From: Auraticoccus monumenti
GTDB taxonomy: Bacteria > Actinomycetota > Actinomycetes > Propionibacteriales > Propionibacteriaceae
Reading direction: 5' to 3'
Assembly: GCF_900101785.1 (NCBI RefSeq)
Contig: NZ_LT629688.1
Coordinates: 2,356,001 to 2,420,000, forward strand
Length of the DNA stretch: 64,000 nucleotides
Made by a program: the position numbers and the translations under genes. Position 1 is the first letter of the stretch. The number at the start of each line of letters is the position of its first letter. The notes below the pieces were generated by a model. That model was not told where the DNA came from and searched no databases. It saw only the letters and a list, made by a program, of their open reading frames with translations. Positions 23,666 to 52,737 of this stretch are shown piece by piece.

Positions 23666-24256
23666 TCACACGGTAGGCGTGAGTGCGGAGCCTCGCTGGA
23701 TCTCGCGGTAGATGGTGGTGCGGGAGACGCTGAACAGCTCGGCCAGCTCGGCCTGGGTGTGTTCGCCGGCCTGGTGCAGGGTGAGCAGGTGCCGCCGCTG
23801 TGATGCTGAGAGCTTGGGCTGCTTGCCGCGGAGTCGGCCCTTGGCGCGTGCCACCGCCATGCCTTCGCGGGTGCGCATCCGGATCAGGTCGGCCTCGAAC
23901 TCCGCGACCATGCTGAGCACGTTGAACAGCAGCCGGCCGACGGGGTCGGTGGGGTCGTAGACGCTGCCGCCGAGGCTGAGGGCGACGCCCTTGGCGGTGA
24001 GCTCGTCGGCGATGTCTCGGGCGTCGGGTAGGGACCGGGCTAGGCGGTCGAGTTTGGTGACGACAAGCGTGTCGCCGCGGCGGACTGCAGCCATCGCTTC
24101 CCGTAGCCCTGGCCGGGCTCGGCTGGTGCCGGTCAGACCGTGGTCGACGTAGATGTGTTCTGCCTGGACCCCGAGGGCGAGGAGGCCGTCGTGTTGGGCA
24201 GTGAGGTCTTGCTCGGCGGTGGAGACCCGGGCGTAGCCGATGCGGATGCCAGTCAC
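23666..24256 (-). CDS. serine recombinase (resolvase/invertase family)
   Basis: A 196-residue small serine recombinase. The catalytic domain (about residues 4-140) has nucleophile Ser12 in GYARVSTAEQ and the conserved VTKLDRLARS and FNVLSMVAEFEADLIRMRTREG motifs, with Arg residues of the active site. A C-terminal helix-turn-helix (QAELAELFSVSRTTIYREI) binds DNA. It resolves cointegrates or inverts DNA at short sites. The stop lies six bases from the left inverted repeat of the IS30-type unit, a transposon-like position. No res-like site was recognised upstream. Confidence 0.92.
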   Translation of the reverse strand: MTGIRIGYARVSTAEQDLTAQHDGLLALGVQAEHIYVDHGLTGTSRARPGLREAMAAVRRGDTLVVTKLDRLARSLPDARDIADELTAKGVALSLGGSVYDPTDPVGRLLFNVLSMVAEFEADLIRMRTREGMAVARAKGRLRGKQPKLSASQRRHLLTLHQAGEHTQAELAELFSVSRTTIYREIQRGSALTPTV

Positions 24257-43338: not shown

Positions 43339-44484
43339 GTGCAGCGACGCGGCGACGAGACGTCGAGGTCGCCGAGGGCCGTCCACGAGGAGCAGGTCCT
43401 GACCCACCTGCGCCGCTACGGCGCCTGCAGCCGGGCCGAGCTGGTGGCGGTCACCGGCCTCTCCCGAGCCACCGTCTCGCAGCTGAGCGGCCGTCTGATC
43501 GCCCGCGGTCAGGTGGTCACCGCTGACTCCGCACCGTCCCCGACGCAGGTGGGCCGACCGCCGGAGACGCTCACCCTGACCCCCGCCGCCGGGCTGGTGC
43601 TGGGTGTGGACTTCGGGCACGCCAGGGTGGCGCTGGTGCTGGCCGACGCCGCCCACGAGGTGGCCGGCTCGAGGACCCTGTCCTACCGACGCGACACCGG
43701 GTGGGACGAGCGGAGCGCGCTCGCGCTGACGGCCGGGCGCGAGCTGGTCGCCTCCCGGGGGCGTCACCCGCTGGCCGCCGCGGGGGTCGGTGTCCCCGGG
43801 GGCATCAGCGGCCGGGCCGAGGTCCAGGCCGCCCTGGAGACCCAGCTGGGGAGCGCTCTCGGCGTCCCCGTCCGCAGCGACAACAACGCCCGGCTCGCCG
43901 GGCTGGCCGAGACGGTCTGGGGAGCCGCTCGGGGGGTCTCCGACGTGGCCTACCTGAAGCTGTCCAACGGGGTGGGCGGGGCGCTGGTGCTGGGGGGTCG
44001 CATCCACACCGGCCAGCGCGGGCAGGCCGGGGAGTTCGGCCACGTCTGCGTGGACGCCGAGGGCCCGCTGTGCCGCTGCGGCAAGCACGGGTGCCTGGAG
44101 CGCTACGTCCGCCTCGACCAGGTGCTGGCCGACGCCGGCCACGCGGGCGTGGCGGAGCTGAGGGCCGCCCTGGACCGGTCCGAGCGGAGGTCGGCGGAGG
44201 TGGTGCGCACCGCCGGACGCCGGATCGGTGCCGTGCTGGCCGGGGTCGCCACGGTCACCGACGTGGTGCACGTGGTCGTCGGAGGTGAGCTGATCGGGCT
44301 CGGGGAGCACCTGCTGGACCCGGTCCGACGCACCCTGCGCGACCAGCTCGGCGGCCCGCACGCGGACGCGGTCCGGGTCGAGCCCGCCCGGCTCGGCGAC
44401 TACGCCGGCGCGCTCGGGGCGATCGCCCGGGTGCTGCACGACGACAGCGTGCCCCTCCTCGCGGTGCCGGACAGCCTGCGGTGA
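43339..44484 (+). CDS. ROK family transcriptional regulator
   Basis: A 381-residue regulator. A winged helix (about residues 15-75, AVTGLSRATVSQLSGRLI) is followed by a ROK domain with the phosphate loop GVDFGHARVALVLAD and the zinc motif CRCGKHGCLERY. ROK repressors sense sugars or sugar phosphates. It is the first gene of a carbohydrate locus (sulfatases, ABC importer, GH51 enzyme) and probably controls it. The GTG start has no clear ribosome site. Confidence 0.92.
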   Translation: MQRRGDETSRSPRAVHEEQVLTHLRRYGACSRAELVAVTGLSRATVSQLSGRLIARGQVVTADSAPSPTQVGRPPETLTLTPAAGLVLGVDFGHARVALVLADAAHEVAGSRTLSYRRDTGWDERSALALTAGRELVASRGRHPLAAAGVGVPGGISGRAEVQAALETQLGSALGVPVRSDNNARLAGLAETVWGAARGVSDVAYLKLSNGVGGALVLGGRIHTGQRGQAGEFGHVCVDAEGPLCRCGKHGCLERYVRLDQVLADAGHAGVAELRAALDRSERRSAEVVRTAGRRIGAVLAGVATVTDVVHVVVGGELIGLGEHLLDPVRRTLRDQLGGPHADAVRVEPARLGDYAGALGAIARVLHDDSVPLLAVPDSLR

Positions 44485-44502
44485 CCGCAGCCGGCTCCGG
44501 GC

Positions 44503-45981
44503 TCAGAAGGCGGCCAGGCGGGGGTTGCTGCGGTCCTCGGTGGCGACGAGGACATCCAGCAGCCGCTCCAGCATCTCCAGCCGGAGGCCGGCCGAGCCGG
44601 GGTCGCGCCACAGGTTGGTGAGCTCTCCGGGGTCGGCGGCGAGGTCGTACAGCTCGCCGTCACGGGGCCGGCTGGTGGCCGGGGGACCGTGGTGGACCAC
44701 CAGCTTGGTGCTGGCGTGGCGCAGCATCGTGGTGTGCACCGGAGGGTCGTAGGGCGCGCCGCTGTCGCGGTACTCGCTCAGCGCCCACCCGCGGGGGCAC
44801 CACGACGGGTCCCCGACGAGCAGGGGCAGCAGCGAGCGGCCCTGTCCACGGGGCAGCGCCTCCGGCAGCCCCGCCGCCTCCAGCAGCGTGGGGGCCAGGT
44901 CGATCCACTGCACCAGGTCCTCCCGGACCGTCCCCGCGGCCACCCGGTCGGGCCACCGCACGAGCAACGGCACCCGCACCGAGCAGTCGAACATCATCGG
45001 TCCCTTGAGCAGCATCTGGTGGTCCCCGAGCAGCTCGCCGTGGTCGCTGGTGAAGACCACCACGGTGTCCTCCCGCAGCCCCAGCTCGTCCAGGGCGTCC
45101 AGCACCCGGCCCACCTCGTCGTCGACCAGGCTGACCATGGCGTAGTACTGCGCCTTGATCTCCTGGATCTCCTCGGCGCTGTGCTCGGCGAACCCCCGCG
45201 CCCGGCCGGCTGAGGAGCGTCGGGACGCCTCGGTCCAGACCGCAGGCTTGTCCGCCAGCTCGTCGGGCACCGTGGACGGCGGCGGCAGCGTCTCGGCGCA
45301 GTACCGGGCGCGGTACTCCGGTGGGGAGCCGAACCCGTGGTGGGGGTCGAAGAAGTTGGCCACCAGGCAGAAGGGTTGCCCTCGCTCCCGGCGCAGGAAC
45401 CCCAGCGCCTCCTCCGCCACCCAGTGGCTGTAGTGCGCCTCGGTGGGGAGCGTGTCGAAGGCCGCCGGCCCCTGGGCCAGGGTGCGGGCCAGCACACCGG
45501 GGAAGTGCTGCTCCAACCACCCGTGGTACGCGTTCTGCGAGGAGCTGACGTAGGGGTCGTGGGCCCACCGGAAGGTGCTGAAGCCGTCGTCCAGGCGGGG
45601 CTCCACCCTGCCGCCGGCGGCGGCGCCGAGGTGCAGCTTGCCCACCAGCCCGCAGTCGTAGCCGACGTCGGCCAGGGCGCGGGTGAAGAGCTCCTGGTCC
45701 GCGGGCAGATCCACCCCGTTGGCCCACTCCCCGTGGTTGCGGGGGTAGCGGCCGGTCATCAGGCTGGCGCGGGACGGGCCGCAGACCGGGGACTGGACGT
45801 AGCACTGCGTGAGCCGGGCCCCCTCGGCGGCGAGGCGGTCCAGGTGGGGCGTGTCGATGTGCGGGTTCCCCGCGGCGCCCAGGGCGTCCCAACGCTGCTG
45901 GTCGGTGCACAGCAGCAGGATGTTCGGGCGCTGCCCAGCCTCTCGGCGGGGGCTTTCGTCGACCTGCTCGTCCACGGGCAC
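44503..45981 (-). CDS. type I sulfatase
   Basis: A 492-residue sulfatase without signal peptide. The formylglycine motif CGPSR (Cys67) stands in SPVCGPSRASLMTGRYP; metal ligands include Asp27 (LLLCTDQQRWD) and the SDHGELLGDH motif with Asp and His. It would remove sulfate from a glycan unit in the cytosol, where a separate formylglycine-generating enzyme must mature it; none is in this window. The start is set by a leaderless -10 box (TACGCT, 45988-45993) six bases before GTG 45981. Divergent from the ABC importer. Confidence 0.93.
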   Translation of the reverse strand: MPVDEQVDESPRREAGQRPNILLLCTDQQRWDALGAAGNPHIDTPHLDRLAAEGARLTQCYVQSPVCGPSRASLMTGRYPRNHGEWANGVDLPADQELFTRALADVGYDCGLVGKLHLGAAAGGRVEPRLDDGFSTFRWAHDPYVSSSQNAYHGWLEQHFPGVLARTLAQGPAAFDTLPTEAHYSHWVAEEALGFLRRERGQPFCLVANFFDPHHGFGSPPEYRARYCAETLPPPSTVPDELADKPAVWTEASRRSSAGRARGFAEHSAEEIQEIKAQYYAMVSLVDDEVGRVLDALDELGLREDTVVVFTSDHGELLGDHQMLLKGPMMFDCSVRVPLLVRWPDRVAAGTVREDLVQWIDLAPTLLEAAGLPEALPRGQGRSLLPLLVGDPSWCPRGWALSEYRDSGAPYDPPVHTTMLRHASTKLVVHHGPPATSRPRDGELYDLAADPGELTNLWRDPGSAGLRLEMLERLLDVLVATEDRSNPRLAAF

Positions 45982-45987
45982 GTCCGC

Positions 45988-45993
45988 AGCGTA
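45988..45993 (-). promoter_or_regulatory. leaderless promoter -10 box for the first sulfatase
   Basis: On the minus strand TACGCT is followed by six bases and GTG at 45981. Confidence 0.55.
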
Positions 45994-46054
45994 GGAAGCG
46001 GCTCCGGAGGGCGGCAACGTTCTGACTGATCCGGGCGGGTTCTAGGCAGAAGCG

Positions 46055-46084
46055 TTGACCGGCCCCCGGGGGGCTTCCTACGTT
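46055..46084 (+). promoter_or_regulatory. promoter of the ABC importer operon
   Basis: TTGACC (46055-46060), an 18-base spacer and TACGTT (46079-46084) make a good sigma-70-type promoter, 36 bases before the binding-protein ATG. The spacer contains the C5/G6 dyad CCCCCGGGGGG, which might be an operator half. Confidence 0.65.
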
Positions 46085-46119
46085 CACGGCTCATCAACGT
46101 CGATGCGAAGGGCCTGTGG

Positions 46120-47613
46120 ATGACTCAGCACACGATCGGACGGGCCGGTGGCCCAGCGTTCAGCCGCCGGACCCTGGTGGCCGGCGCCGGACTGGCCGGG
46201 ACGGCCGTGGCCAGCCCCTGGCTGGTGGGGTGCACGGGCGGCGGGGAACCCGCGGCCCCCGCCACGGACGGTGGCGCCGACACCGGGACGGTGACCTGGT
46301 GGGACCAGTTCCGCCCCCTCACCCAGCTCTTCGAGGAGCAGCTGTTCACCCCGTTCGAGGAGAGCCACCCGGGCGTCACCGTCGAGCGCCGCGAGATGGA
46401 CGGCCCGGCGATGGGTCAGGCCCTCCAGCTCGGCCGGCGCAGCAACCAGCTCCCCGACGTGCACTCGCTGGCGGGGCTGGACGGCTCACCGGCCTCGCTG
46501 CAGGCCGCGGGCTGGTTCCAGCCCCTCGACGACTTCGTCGACGTGGACGCCTCCCCGGTGGCGGACCTGCTGCTGGACGGCGTGCACCGCTTCGACGGCG
46601 AGCTGTACACGGTGCCCGTGTTCAGCAGCCGCTGGCACGACGCCATCCCCTGGCTCAACACCGAGCTGGTGGAGCAGGCCGGTCTGGACCCCGAGGACGG
46701 CCCGGCCAGCTGGGACGAGTTCCGGGCCGCGCTCCGCACGCTGGACCAGAGCAGCGGCGACGACGTCCACCCCCTGGTGGTGGCGGCCAAGGCCCCGCCG
46801 TACCTGGTCGCCCTGCTGGACCGGCTGGCGATGTCGGCAGGAGGCGTGGGTCCGGTGGATCCGCGCACCGGCGAGTACGCCTACACCACCGACCCCTACC
46901 TCGAGGCGATGGAGCTCCTGCTCTCGCTGCAGCAGGACGGGTTGGTCCACCCGTCCTCCGCCTCGATGGACACCCGTGACGCCCGGGCCCGCTGGGCGGC
47001 CGGCGAGGCCGCCGTCTACCTCTGGGGGCCCTGGTTCATCGGCGGGCTCACGGTCCAGGACACCGCCGCCATCGAGCGCGGCGTCGGGGTCTGGCAGCTG
47101 CCCACCTCCGACGGCACCCCGCCGCACCTCTACAGCGGCCCTCCCGGCGGCACCTTCTGGGTCTCGTCGCAGGCCGTCCACGCCCGGCTCGGCGCCCAGA
47201 TCATGATGTCCATGGTGGAGCCGGAGTTCCAGCGCATGCTGGCCGGCGCCATGGACCAGCCCCCGGTGCTGACCGAGGTGGTGGCCGAGGCCGACGTCCA
47301 CCCCGCCTACCGTCGCAACGTGGAGCTGATGGCCGAGAGCGTCCACATGGCACCCGTGCCCCAGGTGCGCAACCCCGACGTCTCCCGCGTCCTGGCCGAG
47401 ATGCGCCAGATCGACCCCGGGATCGGGCAGATCGTCCAGGCCGCCCTCACCGACTCCAGCTCGGACTGGCGCTCGGCCCTGCAGACCTACCAGGACGCGA
47501 TCACCGCCGAGCGCGACCGGGCCATCGAGGCGGTCACCGCCGACGGGGCCACCGTCTCCGTGGACGACTGGCGCTTCGAGGGCTGGCAGCCCGGGCAGGA
47601 CCACCAGCAGTGA
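46120..47613 (+). CDS. ABC sugar transporter substrate-binding protein (Tat lipoprotein)
   Basis: A 497-residue family-1 solute-binding protein. Its N-terminus has a twin-arginine motif (FSRRTLVAGAGLAG) and a lipobox ending LVGC at about residue 38, so it is probably a Tat-exported lipoprotein. The body has typical ligand motifs (DTGTVTWWDQFRP, VPVFSSRWHDAIPWLN). It captures the substrate for the coupled permeases. GAAGGG lies seven bases before the ATG. Its 3' end overlaps the first permease gene by four bases. Most similar in layout to binding proteins for oligosaccharides. Confidence 0.92.
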   Translation: MTQHTIGRAGGPAFSRRTLVAGAGLAGTAVASPWLVGCTGGGEPAAPATDGGADTGTVTWWDQFRPLTQLFEEQLFTPFEESHPGVTVERREMDGPAMGQALQLGRRSNQLPDVHSLAGLDGSPASLQAAGWFQPLDDFVDVDASPVADLLLDGVHRFDGELYTVPVFSSRWHDAIPWLNTELVEQAGLDPEDGPASWDEFRAALRTLDQSSGDDVHPLVVAAKAPPYLVALLDRLAMSAGGVGPVDPRTGEYAYTTDPYLEAMELLLSLQQDGLVHPSSASMDTRDARARWAAGEAAVYLWGPWFIGGLTVQDTAAIERGVGVWQLPTSDGTPPHLYSGPPGGTFWVSSQAVHARLGAQIMMSMVEPEFQRMLAGAMDQPPVLTEVVAEADVHPAYRRNVELMAESVHMAPVPQVRNPDVSRVLAEMRQIDPGIGQIVQAALTDSSSDWRSALQTYQDAITAERDRAIEAVTADGATVSVDDWRFEGWQPGQDHQQ

Positions 47614-48590
47614 CCTCCTTCCCGGCCACGGCCCCGGCCGCGCCGTCCGCCGCCGGTGGAGGAGGAGCCGCCCCGCGGCGGGGCCGACCAGGGGTGCTGG
47701 CCAGGGCGCGTCGGAGCTGGTGGGTCTACCTGTTCCTGCTCCCCACCTTCGTGGGCTACGGGCTGTGGACGGTCTACCCGCTGCTGGCCAGCTGGTGGTA
47801 CGCCTTCCTGGACTGGCCCGGCTTCGCGCTGAGGGGTGAGTTCGTCGGGCTGGAGAACTTCGAGCGGCTGCTGGGCGACGACCTGTTCTGGAACGCCTTC
47901 GGCAACTCGCTGGTGTTCATGGTGGTGGCGGTGCCGATCCGGGTCGGGGGCGCGCTGCTGCTGGCCCTGGTGCTGAACAGCCGGCTGACCCCGCTGCGCG
48001 GCCTCTTCCGCACGCTGATCTTCCTGCCCGTGGTGACCACGGGGGCGGTGATCGGGGTGGTCTTCACCCTGATCCTGGACGCCGGCGGGCCGGTCAACGC
48101 GGCGCTGCTGCGGGTGGCCCTGCTGGAGTCACCGGTCGGCTTCGCCGCCGACTCCGACACGTCCCTGGGTGCCGTCATCGGGGTCTGGGTGTGGAAGTGG
48201 CTGGGGATCACGATGATCTACTGGCTGGCCGCCCTGCAGACCATCCCGCCCGAGCTGGGCGAGGCGGCCAGGGTCGACCGGGCGGGGCCGGTGCGGGAGT
48301 TCCTGCACATCACCCTGCCGCTGCTGGTGCCCTTCCTGGTCATCATCACCCTGATCGACATGGTCGGCGCGCTGAACGTCTTCGACCTCGCCAACACCCT
48401 CACCGGTGGCGGACCCGCCTACTCCTCGGAGGTGATCGAGATCTTCATCTACCGCACCGCCTTCGAGGCCACCGTCCCCGAGCTGGGCTACGCCTCGGCC
48501 GCGGCCGTGCTCTTCGGCCTGCTGACCATCGCCCTGGCCGTGGGGCAGGCCCTCGGGGTCCGCGCCGTGCGTCGCCGGAGCCTGACGTGA
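47610..48590 (+). CDS. ABC sugar transporter permease (MalF-type)
   Basis: A 326-residue permease with six membrane helices after a Pro/Gly/Ala-rich cytoplasmic start. The EAA loop that contacts the ATPase is LGEAARVDRAGPVREFLHIT. The GTG overlaps the binding-protein stop (GTGA) and its own stop overlaps the second permease start in the same way. No ATPase gene is in the locus, so a shared MsiK-type ATPase encoded elsewhere is expected, as is usual in actinomycetes. Confidence 0.93.
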   Translation: MTSFPATAPAAPSAAGGGGAAPRRGRPGVLARARRSWWVYLFLLPTFVGYGLWTVYPLLASWWYAFLDWPGFALRGEFVGLENFERLLGDDLFWNAFGNSLVFMVVAVPIRVGGALLLALVLNSRLTPLRGLFRTLIFLPVVTTGAVIGVVFTLILDAGGPVNAALLRVALLESPVGFAADSDTSLGAVIGVWVWKWLGITMIYWLAALQTIPPELGEAARVDRAGPVREFLHITLPLLVPFLVIITLIDMVGALNVFDLANTLTGGGPAYSSEVIEIFIYRTAFEATVPELGYASAAAVLFGLLTIALAVGQALGVRAVRRRSLT

Positions 48591-49504
48591 GCGCGCCGGC
48601 GAGGACGGCGACCCCGGTCGTCGGGTCCACCCCGCCAGCCACCGGTCCGGGCCCCGGGGCCGGCGGCGTCCGACGGCGTCGACGACCCCGTGGCCGGCTG
48701 CTGGTCGGCGTCGGGCTCGCGCTGTTCTGCCTGGTCTGGATCTACCCGTTCCTGTGGGTGCTCTCGGCCTCCTTCAAGGAGCAGGGCGACATCTTCGGCC
48801 AGGGTCTCGCGCTGCTGCCGGAGACCCTGGTGTGGGACAACTACGTGCGGGCCTGGGAGCAGGTCGGCTTCAGCCGCTACTTCGTCAACTCCGTGGTCAT
48901 CACCGCGGCCACCGTGGCGCTCATCGTGGTCCGCAGCGCGCTGGCCGGCTACGTGCTGGGTCGCTGCGACTTCCCGGGCAAGAAGCTGGTCATCGGGATC
49001 TTCCTGGTGACCTTCTTCCTGCCCGAGGGCTACACGATCATCCCGGTGACCCAGCTGACCGACTCCCTCGGGCTGCTCAACACCCACGCCGGGGTCGTCC
49101 TCGGTCTGGGTGCCGGCGGCCACGTCGCGGCCACCCTGCTGTACGCCGGGTACTTCCGCAGCCTGCCGATGGAGCTGGAGGAGAGCGCCCGGGTCGACGG
49201 CGCCGGACCGGTGACGATCTTCTTCAGGATCATGCTGCCGCTGGCCTGGCCGGTGACCGCGACCGTGATCATCCTGCAGTTCCTGACCGCCTGGAACGCC
49301 TACCTGCTGCCGTTGGTGTTCACGCTGAGCCAGCCGGACCTGCGCACCCTCGCCGTCGGCATGACCAGCTTCGTCGGCGAGTACAGCACCGACTACTCCG
49401 GTCTCGCCGCCGCCGCGGTGATCTCCCTGCTGCCGGTGATGGCGGTGTTCATCTCGATGCAGCGCCACTTCGTCGACAGCATCGCCGGCGCCGTCAAGCA
49501 GTGA
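48587..49504 (+). CDS. ABC sugar transporter permease (MalG-type)
   Basis: A 305-residue permease with six helices and an Arg-rich N-terminus. The EAA loop is ELEESARVDGAGPVTIFFRI. It starts at GTG 48587 inside the preceding stop. Together with the first permease it forms the channel of a CUT1-type importer. The final residues DSIAGAVKQ are typical of the family. Confidence 0.93.
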   Translation: MSAPARTATPVVGSTPPATGPGPGAGGVRRRRRPRGRLLVGVGLALFCLVWIYPFLWVLSASFKEQGDIFGQGLALLPETLVWDNYVRAWEQVGFSRYFVNSVVITAATVALIVVRSALAGYVLGRCDFPGKKLVIGIFLVTFFLPEGYTIIPVTQLTDSLGLLNTHAGVVLGLGAGGHVAATLLYAGYFRSLPMELEESARVDGAGPVTIFFRIMLPLAWPVTATVIILQFLTAWNAYLLPLVFTLSQPDLRTLAVGMTSFVGEYSTDYSGLAAAAVISLLPVMAVFISMQRHFVDSIAGAVKQ

Positions 49505-49540
49505 CCCGCCCACCACCCACCCCCTGACTAGGAGCCCCAC

Positions 49541-51199
49541 GTGCCCCCGACCGCACCCGACGCCCTGATCACCGTCGACGACCGCAGCACCGACACCGCC
49601 GTGCCGGCCCGGATCCGCGACGAGGTGTACGGCCACTTCCTGGAGTCGGCCTTCTTCGGCAACATCGAGGGCGGGGTGCTCGACGAGGGGTCACCGCTCT
49701 CGGTGACCGCGCCCGGACCTCTCCAGGGCTGCCGCCGCGACGTCATCGACGCCTGCCGCGAGCTGGGCCTGCCGGTGGTGCGCTGGCCCGGGGGCAACTT
49801 CACCTCCGCCTACTGGTGGACCGACGGCACGGGCCCCCGCGACGAGCGTCCCCGGCGGCTCGAGCTGGCCTGGGGGTCGGAGGAGAGCAACCGGTTCGGC
49901 ACCCCGGAGTTCCTGGCCTGGTGCGCGGCGGTGGGGACACGGCCCTACCTGGCCCACAGCGCCCGCTCGGTGGAGGACGCGGTCCGCTGGGTGGAGTACA
50001 CCAACTACGCCGGCGACACCGAGATGACCCGCCGCCGGACCGCCGACGGGATCACCGAGCCGGCCGGCGTGCGCTGGTGGGGTCTGGGCAACGAGGTCTA
50101 CGGCCCGTGGCAGATGGGGCACCGTCCGGTGGAGCAGTACGTGGCCGACGCCCGCGAGCACGCCCGCTTCATGAACCTGGTGGACCCCGGGCTGTCCTTC
50201 GTGGCGGTGGGGGACCAGGACCCGCGGTGGAACCGCGCGGTGGTCCAGGGGCTGGGCGACGTCGTCGACCACGTCTCGCTCCACCTGTACGGCGGTGCGG
50301 AGCACCTGACCACGCCCACGCGCGAGGAGTTCGAGGCCGTCGTGGCCCAGCCCGTCTGGTTCGAGGCCGCCGTGCAGGACTGCGCCTCCCAGCTCCGTCG
50401 GTTCCAGCGGGAGGCCGGGCACGAGCGACCGCTGGCCATCGCCCTGGACGAGTGGAACATCCGCCACCACGAACCGGCGGACTGGCCGGAGCCACAGCCC
50501 GGGGAGGACGGCGGCATCGCCCCGCGCGACCCGGCCGGCACCGGAGCCGGCACCGCGGTCTCGGCGGAGGGGGCGGTGCGGCGTCACCGGGTCAACCGCT
50601 ACAGCCCCCGCACCCTCGCCGACGCCCTCTTCTACTCCGGGGTGTTCCACGCCATGCACCGGGCGGCCTCGCTGCCGGTGCCGGTGGGGATGGCCAACAC
50701 CGTCAACCTGGTCAACGCCAACGGGCTGCTCGCGGTGCGTCCGGGCGGGCTGGTGCGGACGCCGACCTACCACGTCTGGGACCTCTACCAGAACCACACC
50801 GGGAGGGTCGCCCTCCCCACCCGGCTCGAGGCCCCGGCGCGGCAGCAGCAGGTCCGGCAGGGAGCCGAGCACGCGGAGGGGGGCTACCTCCACCGGCCCG
50901 CCACCGTCTCGCTGCTCGACGTCTCCGCCACCACCGACGAGGATCACGGCACCCTCTACCTCAGCGTGGTCAACCGCTCCGCGGACCGGGACCTGACCGC
51001 GGAGCTGCACCTCACCGGTCGTCGCCTGCCCGCGACCGCGGTGGTGCGCGACCTGGGGGCGGGGGAGTCCGACCTCTTCGCCCACAACACGCTGCAGGAC
51101 CCCGAGCGGATCGCGCTCTCCGCACCCCGCGAGGTCTCCCTGACCGGAGGGTGCACCTTCCCGGCCCACTCGGTGACGGTGCTGGAGGTGGCGCTGTGA
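49541..51199 (+). CDS. GH51 alpha-L-arabinofuranosidase
   Basis: A 552-residue intracellular glycosidase. The (beta/alpha)8 catalytic domain shows the acid/base Glu185 in GLGNEVYG and nucleophile Glu304 in ALDEWNI, with the usual RWPGGNF and YSPRTLADALFYSGVF stretches; a C-terminal beta domain follows. There is no signal peptide. GH51 enzymes release alpha-L-arabinofuranose and a few cut other beta-1,4 links, so the exact sugar is not certain. AGGAG lies seven bases before the GTG. The stop overlaps the sulfatase start (GTGA), tying arabinose release to desulfation. Confidence 0.92.
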   Translation: MPPTAPDALITVDDRSTDTAVPARIRDEVYGHFLESAFFGNIEGGVLDEGSPLSVTAPGPLQGCRRDVIDACRELGLPVVRWPGGNFTSAYWWTDGTGPRDERPRRLELAWGSEESNRFGTPEFLAWCAAVGTRPYLAHSARSVEDAVRWVEYTNYAGDTEMTRRRTADGITEPAGVRWWGLGNEVYGPWQMGHRPVEQYVADAREHARFMNLVDPGLSFVAVGDQDPRWNRAVVQGLGDVVDHVSLHLYGGAEHLTTPTREEFEAVVAQPVWFEAAVQDCASQLRRFQREAGHERPLAIALDEWNIRHHEPADWPEPQPGEDGGIAPRDPAGTGAGTAVSAEGAVRRHRVNRYSPRTLADALFYSGVFHAMHRAASLPVPVGMANTVNLVNANGLLAVRPGGLVRTPTYHVWDLYQNHTGRVALPTRLEAPARQQQVRQGAEHAEGGYLHRPATVSLLDVSATTDEDHGTLYLSVVNRSADRDLTAELHLTGRRLPATAVVRDLGAGESDLFAHNTLQDPERIALSAPREVSLTGGCTFPAHSVTVLEVAL

Positions 51200-52737
51200 C
51201 GCGCGCCGCGGGCAGCCCTGAGCGGACCGGGCCCACCAACATCCTCTTCCTGATGACAGACCAGCACACCGTCACCACCCTGGGCTGCCACGGCAACACG
51301 GTGGTGGAGACGCCGCACCTGGACCGGCTGGCCGCCTCGGGGACCCGGTTCTCCGACTGCTTCACCCCGACCGCCATCTGCACCCCCGCCCGAGCCAGCC
51401 TGCTGACCGGGGCCGCCCCGTTCCGGCACAAGCTGCTGGCCAACTACGAGCGCAACGTGGGCTACATGGAGGACCTGGCCGACGACCAGTTCACCTTCCC
51501 CGAGGCGCTGTCGGCGGCGGGCTGGAACCTGGGTCTGGTGGGCAAGTGGCACGGGGGCGTGCGGCGCGACGCCGCCAGCTACGGCTTCGAGGGCCCGCAC
51601 TTCGAGGGCTGGCACAACCCGGTGGACCACCCGGACTACCTCGCCTACCTGGCGGAGCGCGACCTGCCGCCCTACCGGATCAGCGACCTCGTCCGCGGCA
51701 CGACGCCGAACGGCGGGGAGGGGAACCTGCTGGCGGCCCGGCTGCACCAGCCCCTCGAGGCCACCTTCGAGCACTACCTGGTCACCCGGAGCATCGAGAT
51801 GATGGAGCGCTTCGCCAGCGGCGAGGGGACGCGGGGGGAGGCGCCGTTCTTCCTGGCCACCCACTTCTTCGGCCCGCACCTGCCCTACATCCTCCCCGAC
51901 GAGTGGTACGACCGCTACGACCCCGACGAGATCGAGCTGCCGGCCTCGGTGGCGGAGACCTTCGAGAACAAGCCCCCGGTGCAGCGCAACTACTCCGGTC
52001 TGTGGACCCACGACACCCTGGGCGAGGCCACCAGCCGCCAGCTGATCGCCAGCTACTGGGGCTACGTCGCCATGATCGACCTGGAGATCGGTCGCCTCCT
52101 GGACGCCCTGGAGCGGCTCGGGCTGACGGACACGACCAGCGTCCTGTTCACCGCCGACCACGGGGAGTTCACCGGCGCCCACCGGCTGCACGACAAGGGG
52201 CCGGCCATGTACGACGACATCTACCGGATCCCGGGGATCGTCGCGGTGCCCGGACAGCCGCCGCAGGTGCGCGAGGAGCTGGTCAGCCTGACCGACTTCA
52301 CCGCCACCATCCTCGACCTGGCCGGGCTGCCGACGGCTCCGGCGGTGGACAGCCGGTCCCTGCTGCCGCTGGTGCGCGGGGAGCGGGTGCCGTGGTCCCC
52401 GACGCTGCTGGCGGAGTACCACGGGCACCACTTCCCCTACCCGCAGCGGATGCTGCGGACCCGCACCCACAAGCTGGTGGTCAACCCCGAGTCGGTCAAC
52501 GAGCTCTACGACCTGGTGCAGGACCCCGACGAGCTGGTCAACCGGGTGGGGGACCCCGCGCTGGCGGAGGTGGAGCACGCCCTGATGCACGAGCTCTACC
52601 GGCAGCTCCGCGACCGGGGCGACAACTTCGCCCACTGGATGACGCCGATGTACGACGTGGGGGAGGCCGACTACGACTCGACCATGAGCTCCTTCGAGAA
52701 CGGTAGGCACGCCGCTGGGTCCGACGCCGGACCCTGA
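51196..52737 (+). CDS. type I sulfatase, second copy of the locus
   Basis: A 513-residue sulfatase. The formylglycine motif is CTPAR (Cys62) in TAICTPARASLLTG; metal-site motifs are FLMTDQHT and FTADHGEFTGAHRLHDKG. It has no signal peptide. It differs clearly from the other sulfatase (44503-45981), so the two probably act on different sulfate positions or sugars. It is translationally coupled to the GH51 gene and is the last gene of the operon, which ends in a hairpin. Confidence 0.93.
   Translation: MTRAAGSPERTGPTNILFLMTDQHTVTTLGCHGNTVVETPHLDRLAASGTRFSDCFTPTAICTPARASLLTGAAPFRHKLLANYERNVGYMEDLADDQFTFPEALSAAGWNLGLVGKWHGGVRRDAASYGFEGPHFEGWHNPVDHPDYLAYLAERDLPPYRISDLVRGTTPNGGEGNLLAARLHQPLEATFEHYLVTRSIEMMERFASGEGTRGEAPFFLATHFFGPHLPYILPDEWYDRYDPDEIELPASVAETFENKPPVQRNYSGLWTHDTLGEATSRQLIASYWGYVAMIDLEIGRLLDALERLGLTDTTSVLFTADHGEFTGAHRLHDKGPAMYDDIYRIPGIVAVPGQPPQVREELVSLTDFTATILDLAGLPTAPAVDSRSLLPLVRGERVPWSPTLLAEYHGHHFPYPQRMLRTRTHKLVVNPESVNELYDLVQDPDELVNRVGDPALAEVEHALMHELYRQLRDRGDNFAHWMTPMYDVGEADYDSTMSSFENGRHAAGSDAGP

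Follow-up and report, generated by a model that had tools for sequence, protein, structure and literature searches.

We analyzed a 64,000-nucleotide window of Auraticoccus monumenti, whose genome of 4.46 Mb lies in one contig (the window is C1:2356001-2420000). An earlier note, made from the sequence alone, had placed two sulfatases, a GH51 enzyme, and an ATP-binding cassette (ABC) importer with a ROK regulator at window positions 43339-52737, and all seven genes are indeed open frames within these bounds, each supported by Pfam.

43339..44484, + strand: ROK-family regulator with a GTG start and an N-terminal winged helix (PF00480, 140 bits)
44503..46017, - strand: SULF1, a type-I (formylglycine) sulfatase without evident leader (PF00884, 180 bits; CGPSR at Cys79)
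46018..46119, no strand: region of 102 bp between SULF1 and the solute-binding protein, a likely control region
46120..47613, + strand: CUT1 solute-binding protein (SBP) (PF01547 (SBP_bac_1), 67 bits; PF13416, 63 bits)
47610..48590, + strand: CUT1 permease 1 of the MalF/UgpA type (PF00528; UgpA model at 114 bits, below its cut-off of 335)
48587..49504, + strand: CUT1 permease 2 of the MalG/UgpE type (PF00528; GlcU, UgpE, and MalG models, below cut-off)
49541..51199, + strand: GH51-type glycosidase without evident leader (PF06964 (Alpha-L-AF_C), 64 bits; catalytic Glu185 and Glu304)
51196..52737, + strand: SULF2, a type-I sulfatase without evident leader (PF00884, 164 bits; CTPAR at Cys62)

Gene content and layout of the locus

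The ROK gene and SULF1 converge across 18 bp, and SULF1 and the SBP gene diverge across 102 bp. From the SBP through the two permeases and GH51 to SULF2, all genes run on the same strand with gaps of -4, -4, +36, and -4 bp, and because of this shared direction and spacing, the five genes probably form a single transcript. The regulator combines a ROK domain with an N-terminal winged helix, the latter seen as a MarR_2 match of 24 bits that falls under its cut-off of 27, and the two permeases scored 47 and 58 bits on BPD_transp_1. Both sulfatases join the sulfatase domain to the maturation motif C/S-x-P/A-S/A-R, as CGPSR in SULF1, whose exact start is uncertain, and as CTPAR in SULF2. The earlier claim that the enzymes lack signal peptides held up when we took the most hydrophobic 15-residue window within the first 60 residues, a simpler measure than a dedicated signal-peptide predictor: SULF1, GH51, and SULF2 peaked at 0.52, 0.93, and 0.76, versus 1.44 for the SBP, in which a twin-arginine (Tat-type) leader and a lipobox were recognized by eye.

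Neither a formylglycine-generating enzyme (FGE) nor an ATPase is found among the seven genes, as the earlier note had said, and the genome search that it called for located both elsewhere. That note had treated a genome lacking any maturation enzyme as fatal to its reading. A single FGE gene lies outside the locus at C1:931225-932070; the top solved matches of its protein are formylglycine-generating enzymes (best 386 bits, to 6s07), and the CHxSYC stretch is retained, so that a maturation enzyme is available to cytoplasmic sulfatases such as the leaderless SULF1 and SULF2. For the importer, an open reading frame (ORF) at genome positions 2503084-2504289 encodes a UgpC/MalK-type ATPase (468.8 bits versus an NCBIfam subfamily cut-off of 432), with a further OB_MalK match at 1399278; no permease was recognized by eye among ORFs of at least 250 aa within a few kb of the former. 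With an SBP, two permeases, and a MalK-like ATPase encoded elsewhere, the parts of a CUT1 importer are complete, and the MsiK-type ATPase of the genome would serve it. In the available text on Streptomyces MsiK, several importers draw on this one ATPase, whose gene is not part of the cebEFG operon (PMC4890002). Since the FGE and the ATPase are both encoded elsewhere and such sharing is established for MsiK, their absence from the locus is ordinary. The genome contains eight sulfatase-domain genes and encodes an L-arabinose isomerase (AraA).

Recurrence of the gene set and exchange of importers

Across 391 genomes of the order, we counted carriers at genome-level cut-offs of E<=1e-100 for the GH51 subfamily and E<=1e-130 for SULF1 and SULF2, and found 25, 33, and 38 genomes, respectively. 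Those carrying the GH51 subfamily also held SULF2 in 20/25 cases, SULF1 in 23/25, and at least one of the two in 25/25 (Fisher p of ~8e-19 for SULF2 and ~3e-27 for SULF1, values inflated by relatedness). Neighborhoods were counted by tblastn with the window proteins and selected neighbors. Within 8 kb of the GH51 gene, SULF1 was present in 10/25 (among them L097, a 55-residue fragment), SULF2 in 12/25, either one in 18/25, any sulfatase in 21/25, ROK in 16/25, and both CUT1 permeases in 8/25, while the complete seven-gene set appeared in one further locus of those fetched, L090, which belongs to another family. Because parts of it co-recur in further families of this order and L090 unites all seven genes, the gene set is more than a chance arrangement and constitutes a recurrent module.

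SULF2 was followed through named genomes, where 517 stretches hold a relative at the loose cut-off of E<=1e-3, a number that does not support the earlier view of intracellular sulfatases with GH51 as unusual for a soil-type actinomycete. We describe the best 80 of these, that is, the closest relatives only, within a radius of 9 kb. By record title, 48 of the hosts are Streptomyces and 12 are Nonomuraea, which does not bear out the marine setting at which the earlier note had hinted. ROK stands near SULF2 in 75/80 loci, a three-gene SsuABC-type importer in 66/80, GH43 in 25/80, a porter of the major facilitator superfamily (MFS) in 7/80, the GH51 subfamily in 4/80, and the locus-type CUT1 in 2/80. 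The importer is thus exchanged around SULF2 among three types. The three MFS porters that we checked match the sugar-porter family PF00083, and one of the seven (L141) is a 28% match that sits next to an SsuABC set. GH43 carries PF04616 in the two checked, with a leader seen by eye and a best solved match to an arabinofuranosidase at only E 2e-4. A ribose-type (CUT2) identity of the usual importer was considered and ruled out, as the profiles give an NMT1/SsuA-type SBP. In L040, the one locus tested, this SBP reached 216.5 bits on the aliphatic-sulfonate SsuA model (cut-off 163.5), and the permease resembles TauC/SsuC and the ATPase TauB types, both below cut-off.

These importers bear on the main rival to sugar catabolism, namely sulfur scavenging, in which SULF2 would free sulfate from diverse small esters (aryl, alkyl, sugar) taken up through sulfonate-type importers, the sugar being incidental. 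The SsuABC-type set in 66 of the 80 loci and the SBP that passes the sulfonate model argue for it. Nearly every one of these loci, however, has a ROK gene, typical of sugar control, near SULF2, the remaining importers are MFS sugar porters or CUT1, and GH43 and GH51 are recurrent neighbors; judged by these neighbors, we regard scavenging as unlikely.

On a quick SULF2 tree of 107 rows, 8 changes are required to explain the GH51 context, no fewer than 5 of them on well-supported branches, and for this reason the pairing of SULF2 with GH51 does not go back to one inherited event; eleven long rows of the tree are flagged, including that of the window, and two long-branch joins may be false. A diverged SULF2 (50-52%) is also present in a genus of the same family with genomes of 2.3-2.6 Mb (L048, L049, and L050), together with ROK and an MFS-like gene that is 30% identical to that of L110.

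SULF1 was sampled in 39 loci at >=55% identity, one of them a fragment. Its neighbors include locus-type CUT1 permeases (18/39), GH2 (14/39), LacI (13/39), the GH51 subfamily (11/39), and GH43 (9/39). The same genome holds a sister cluster at G000:C1 ~666400-675900 (L056:4415-13911), composed of a GH43-like gene, GH2, LacI, SULF1b (a 66% paralogue of SULF1), two CUT1 permeases, and an SBP. The GH43-like call comes from structures of the GH43 family, endo-arabinanases among them, that match weakly, and the best solved matches of the GH2 protein are a beta-glucuronidase (355 bits) and then a beta-D-galactofuranosidase (223 bits). In a kin genome (G117), L088 and L215 carry SULF1, GH2, GH43, two ASD1-type arabinofuranosidase-like proteins, and more sulfatase-like genes over ~30 kb, a larger sulfated-glycan region.

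Relatives of the sulfatases and of the GH51-type enzyme

The closest solved structure to SULF2, both by sequence (178.8 bits) and by fold, is PsS1_NC, the exo-DA2S iota-carrageenan sulfatase of Pseudoalteromonas (6PT4/6PT6). The predicted SULF2 model (mean pLDDT 77, pTM 0.84, with its lowest stretches including 83-87 and 326-337) aligned to it with Z 37.6 and a root-mean-square deviation of 2.7 over 424 residues at 28% identity. According to the available text of its paper, which placed the enzyme in a non-classified sulfatase group, PsS1_NC is an obligate exo-sulfatase that needs one sulfated residue at the non-reducing end, and its recombinant form was inactive (PMC6923384). It differs from SULF2 in having a predicted signal peptide and a marine host, and the same text does not mention GH51 in the carrageenan pathway, unlike the locus. 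By analogy, such an exo-mode would suit a small imported substrate of SULF2, without defining what that substrate is.

For SULF1, the dimeric sulfatases 4upl and 4upi top the solved relatives and the phosphonate monoester hydrolase 2w8s ranks fourth. The sulfatase/phosphonate hydrolase superfamily is catalytically promiscuous, and one or both proteins might instead hydrolyze phosphonates or phosphodiesters, as these SULF1 relatives and the high rank of phosphonate hydrolases for the SULF2 fold would allow. Against this stand the CxPxR motif in SULF1 and SULF2, the glycan sulfatases that are the top relatives of SULF2, the sulfonate-type importers, and the anaerobic sulfatase maturase genes in both SULF2 loci tested, which come from other members of the same bacterial family (L044:4228-5460 and L048:12423-13730, TIGR03942 over cut-off). 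We therefore consider such an activity highly improbable.

The glycosidase has the acid/base Glu in a GNE motif, the nucleophile Glu in DEWN, and a C-terminal beta domain, as expected of GH51, and E185 and E304 are invariant in 17/17 rows of the subfamily. Solved arabinofuranosidases match it at up to 272 bits. The Pfam catalytic-domain model PF22848 gave no match at E<=0.001, and on the curated ArfA equivalog NF051901 the protein scored 252 bits against a cut-off of 625; judged by its sequence, the enzyme is GH51-type and not ArfA. It shares the catalytic Glu pair, the GGNF, GNE, and DEWN motifs, and a cytoplasmic location with the arabinofuranosidases of the T. maritima and G. stearothermophilus type. 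Compared with the T. maritima enzymes, however, the NMGTG loop gives way to a shorter H..R loop (His139, Arg142), DEWNVWY becomes DEWNIRH (Arg308, His309), and AQLVN becomes VNLVN (Asn389), and compared with 3s2c, ~37 additional residues follow the nucleophile strand (310-354 versus 287-294). His139, Arg142, Arg308, His309, and Asn389 are invariant in 17/17 rows of the subfamily. Since four invariant basic residues replace neutral or aromatic ones of the T. maritima enzymes, the alignment suggests an anion-binding pocket; the AlphaFold2 model built from five sequences had a mean pLDDT of 59, with values <50 around the catalytic residues.

Proposed pathway, known systems, and regulation

With moderate confidence, we interpret the locus as a system that takes up a small sulfated glycoside, probably one bearing a furanose (arabinose or galactofuranose), and desulfates it inside the cell in exo fashion. 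The lipoprotein SBP and the two CUT1 permeases would take up a sulfated oligosaccharide or glycoside intact, energized by the shared MsiK-type ATPase encoded elsewhere, and the single genomic FGE would mature SULF1 and SULF2 in the cytoplasm. The two sulfatases would then act on the sugar at the non-reducing end and release its sulfate, with SULF2 probably binding one sulfated residue in a pocket as its nearest solved relative PsS1_NC does. GH51 would split a furanosidic bond, either that of an alpha-L-arabinofuranosyl group or that of its isostere beta-D-galactofuranosyl, in a step that could precede or follow desulfation. ROK may sense the freed sugar and govern the divergent promoters, and the pathway would supply carbon and, incidentally, sulfate. 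The earlier proposal of intact import followed by intracellular desulfation and deglycosylation fits the importer type, the leaderless enzymes, the FGE, the MsiK-type ATPase, and the recurrence of the module.

Several observations weigh against this interpretation. Among the 25 genomes with GH51, seven lack both SULF1 and SULF2 in the surrounding 8 kb and four lack any sulfatase there, the genome-level association is confounded by kinship inside a few genera, and 9/39 SULF1 loci are free of CUT1, GH2, GH43, and GH51 alike. GH51 is not essential to the role of SULF2, as it lies near only 4/80 SULF2 loci, and its joint action with the sulfatases on one molecule is drawn from gene context. SULF2 and PsS1_NC share only 27-28% identity, and given this low figure and the inactive recombinant enzyme, the specificity of PsS1_NC is not transferable to SULF2. 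Finally, no convincing palindrome that could serve as a ROK operator was found in the window.

The furanose is favored because two unrelated arabinofuranosidase-type families, GH51 and GH43, occur near one sulfatase, and we would favor arabinose first and galactofuranose second. The arabinose named in the earlier note is partly supported by GH51 (4/80) and, independently, GH43 (25/80) near SULF2 and by AraA in the genome; galactofuranose is also admitted, given the GH2 of the sister cluster. The narrower claim of a sulfated arabinan in particular is not supported by these findings. An oligosaccharide of marine or algal origin, derived from a sulfated arabinan or arabinogalactan, would agree with the occurrence of both GH51 and GH43 around one sulfatase and with the isomerase, but no arabinanase was found by Pfam among the seven genes and 60/80 hosts are by name Streptomyces or Nonomuraea, though some strains may be marine; we hold this substrate to be quite unlikely. 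GH51 is not expected to act on arabinopyranose. In the available text, the sulfated xylogalactoarabinan of Cladophora contains its arabinose as the pyranose, which speaks against the arabinan, and because this alga is a freshwater one, sulfated arabinose does not require the sea (PMC5694217).

CebR, the regulator of the Streptomyces CebEFG-MsiK system, is a LacI-type repressor, whereas the present locus has ROK, and sulfatases in the operon. As described in the available text, CebEFG-MsiK shares with our locus an SBP and two permeases with the ATPase encoded at another chromosomal site (PMC4890002). The ats clusters of Bifidobacterium breve, which use GlcNAc-6-sulfate (Egan et al. 2016, as cited in the available parts of PMC7326374 and PMC9239261), are likewise actinobacterial, with an intracellular sulfatase for sulfated monosaccharides and their own transport system and transcriptional regulator. 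As described there, they carry an anaerobic maturase, whereas the locus relies on an FGE encoded elsewhere and has a CUT1 importer, two sulfatases, and GH51; no maturase was found by Pfam among its seven genes, which sets it apart from ats-type clusters. The titles and abstract openings that we searched, mostly outside the subscription literature, yielded no published description of this module. The parts are ordinary, but SULF2 recurs in many actinobacteria alongside three different importers.

The best descriptions of sugar-sulfate catabolism come from bacteria of the sea and the gut. Soil sulfur is mostly organic, with sulfate esters as a major form, according to the available text of PMC4267179. 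Tentatively, and well short of even confidence, we propose that an as yet undescribed route for sulfated furanosides is common to actinobacteria from mainly soil-type genera, in which a core of ROK and SULF2 would swap importers (SsuABC, MFS, CUT1) by substrate size and the GH51 pocket would be remodeled (His139, Arg142, Arg308, His309) to take sulfated furanosides directly. With its swappable importers and candidate relatives numbering in the hundreds, the SULF2 family offers an assayable enzyme set for actinobacterial sugar-sulfate use, alongside a GH51 subfamily that has a plausible anion-binding pocket.

Regarding regulation, the region between SULF1 and the SBP gene is overlapped by the arms of one imperfect inverted repeat. 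The commonest dyads (7 and 5 of 19 loci) were rejected as operators; their position, 160-254 bp upstream of the match to ROK, is probably within the coding sequence of the neighboring SULF1. A strong, near-perfect extended palindrome, TAATC-N6-GATTA, stands upstream of ROK in a single lineage (L046:4405, L093:16866, and L095:16895), ~76-99 bp from the ROK match and with 3 occurrences in the 3.27 Mb of fetched DNA, and is likely the ROK operator of that lineage.

Elsewhere in the window, positions 8001-32000 have a G+C of 0.66-0.70 versus 0.71-0.76 in the remainder and include a resolvase-like ORF (23666-24256, by eye only), possibly an acquired island.

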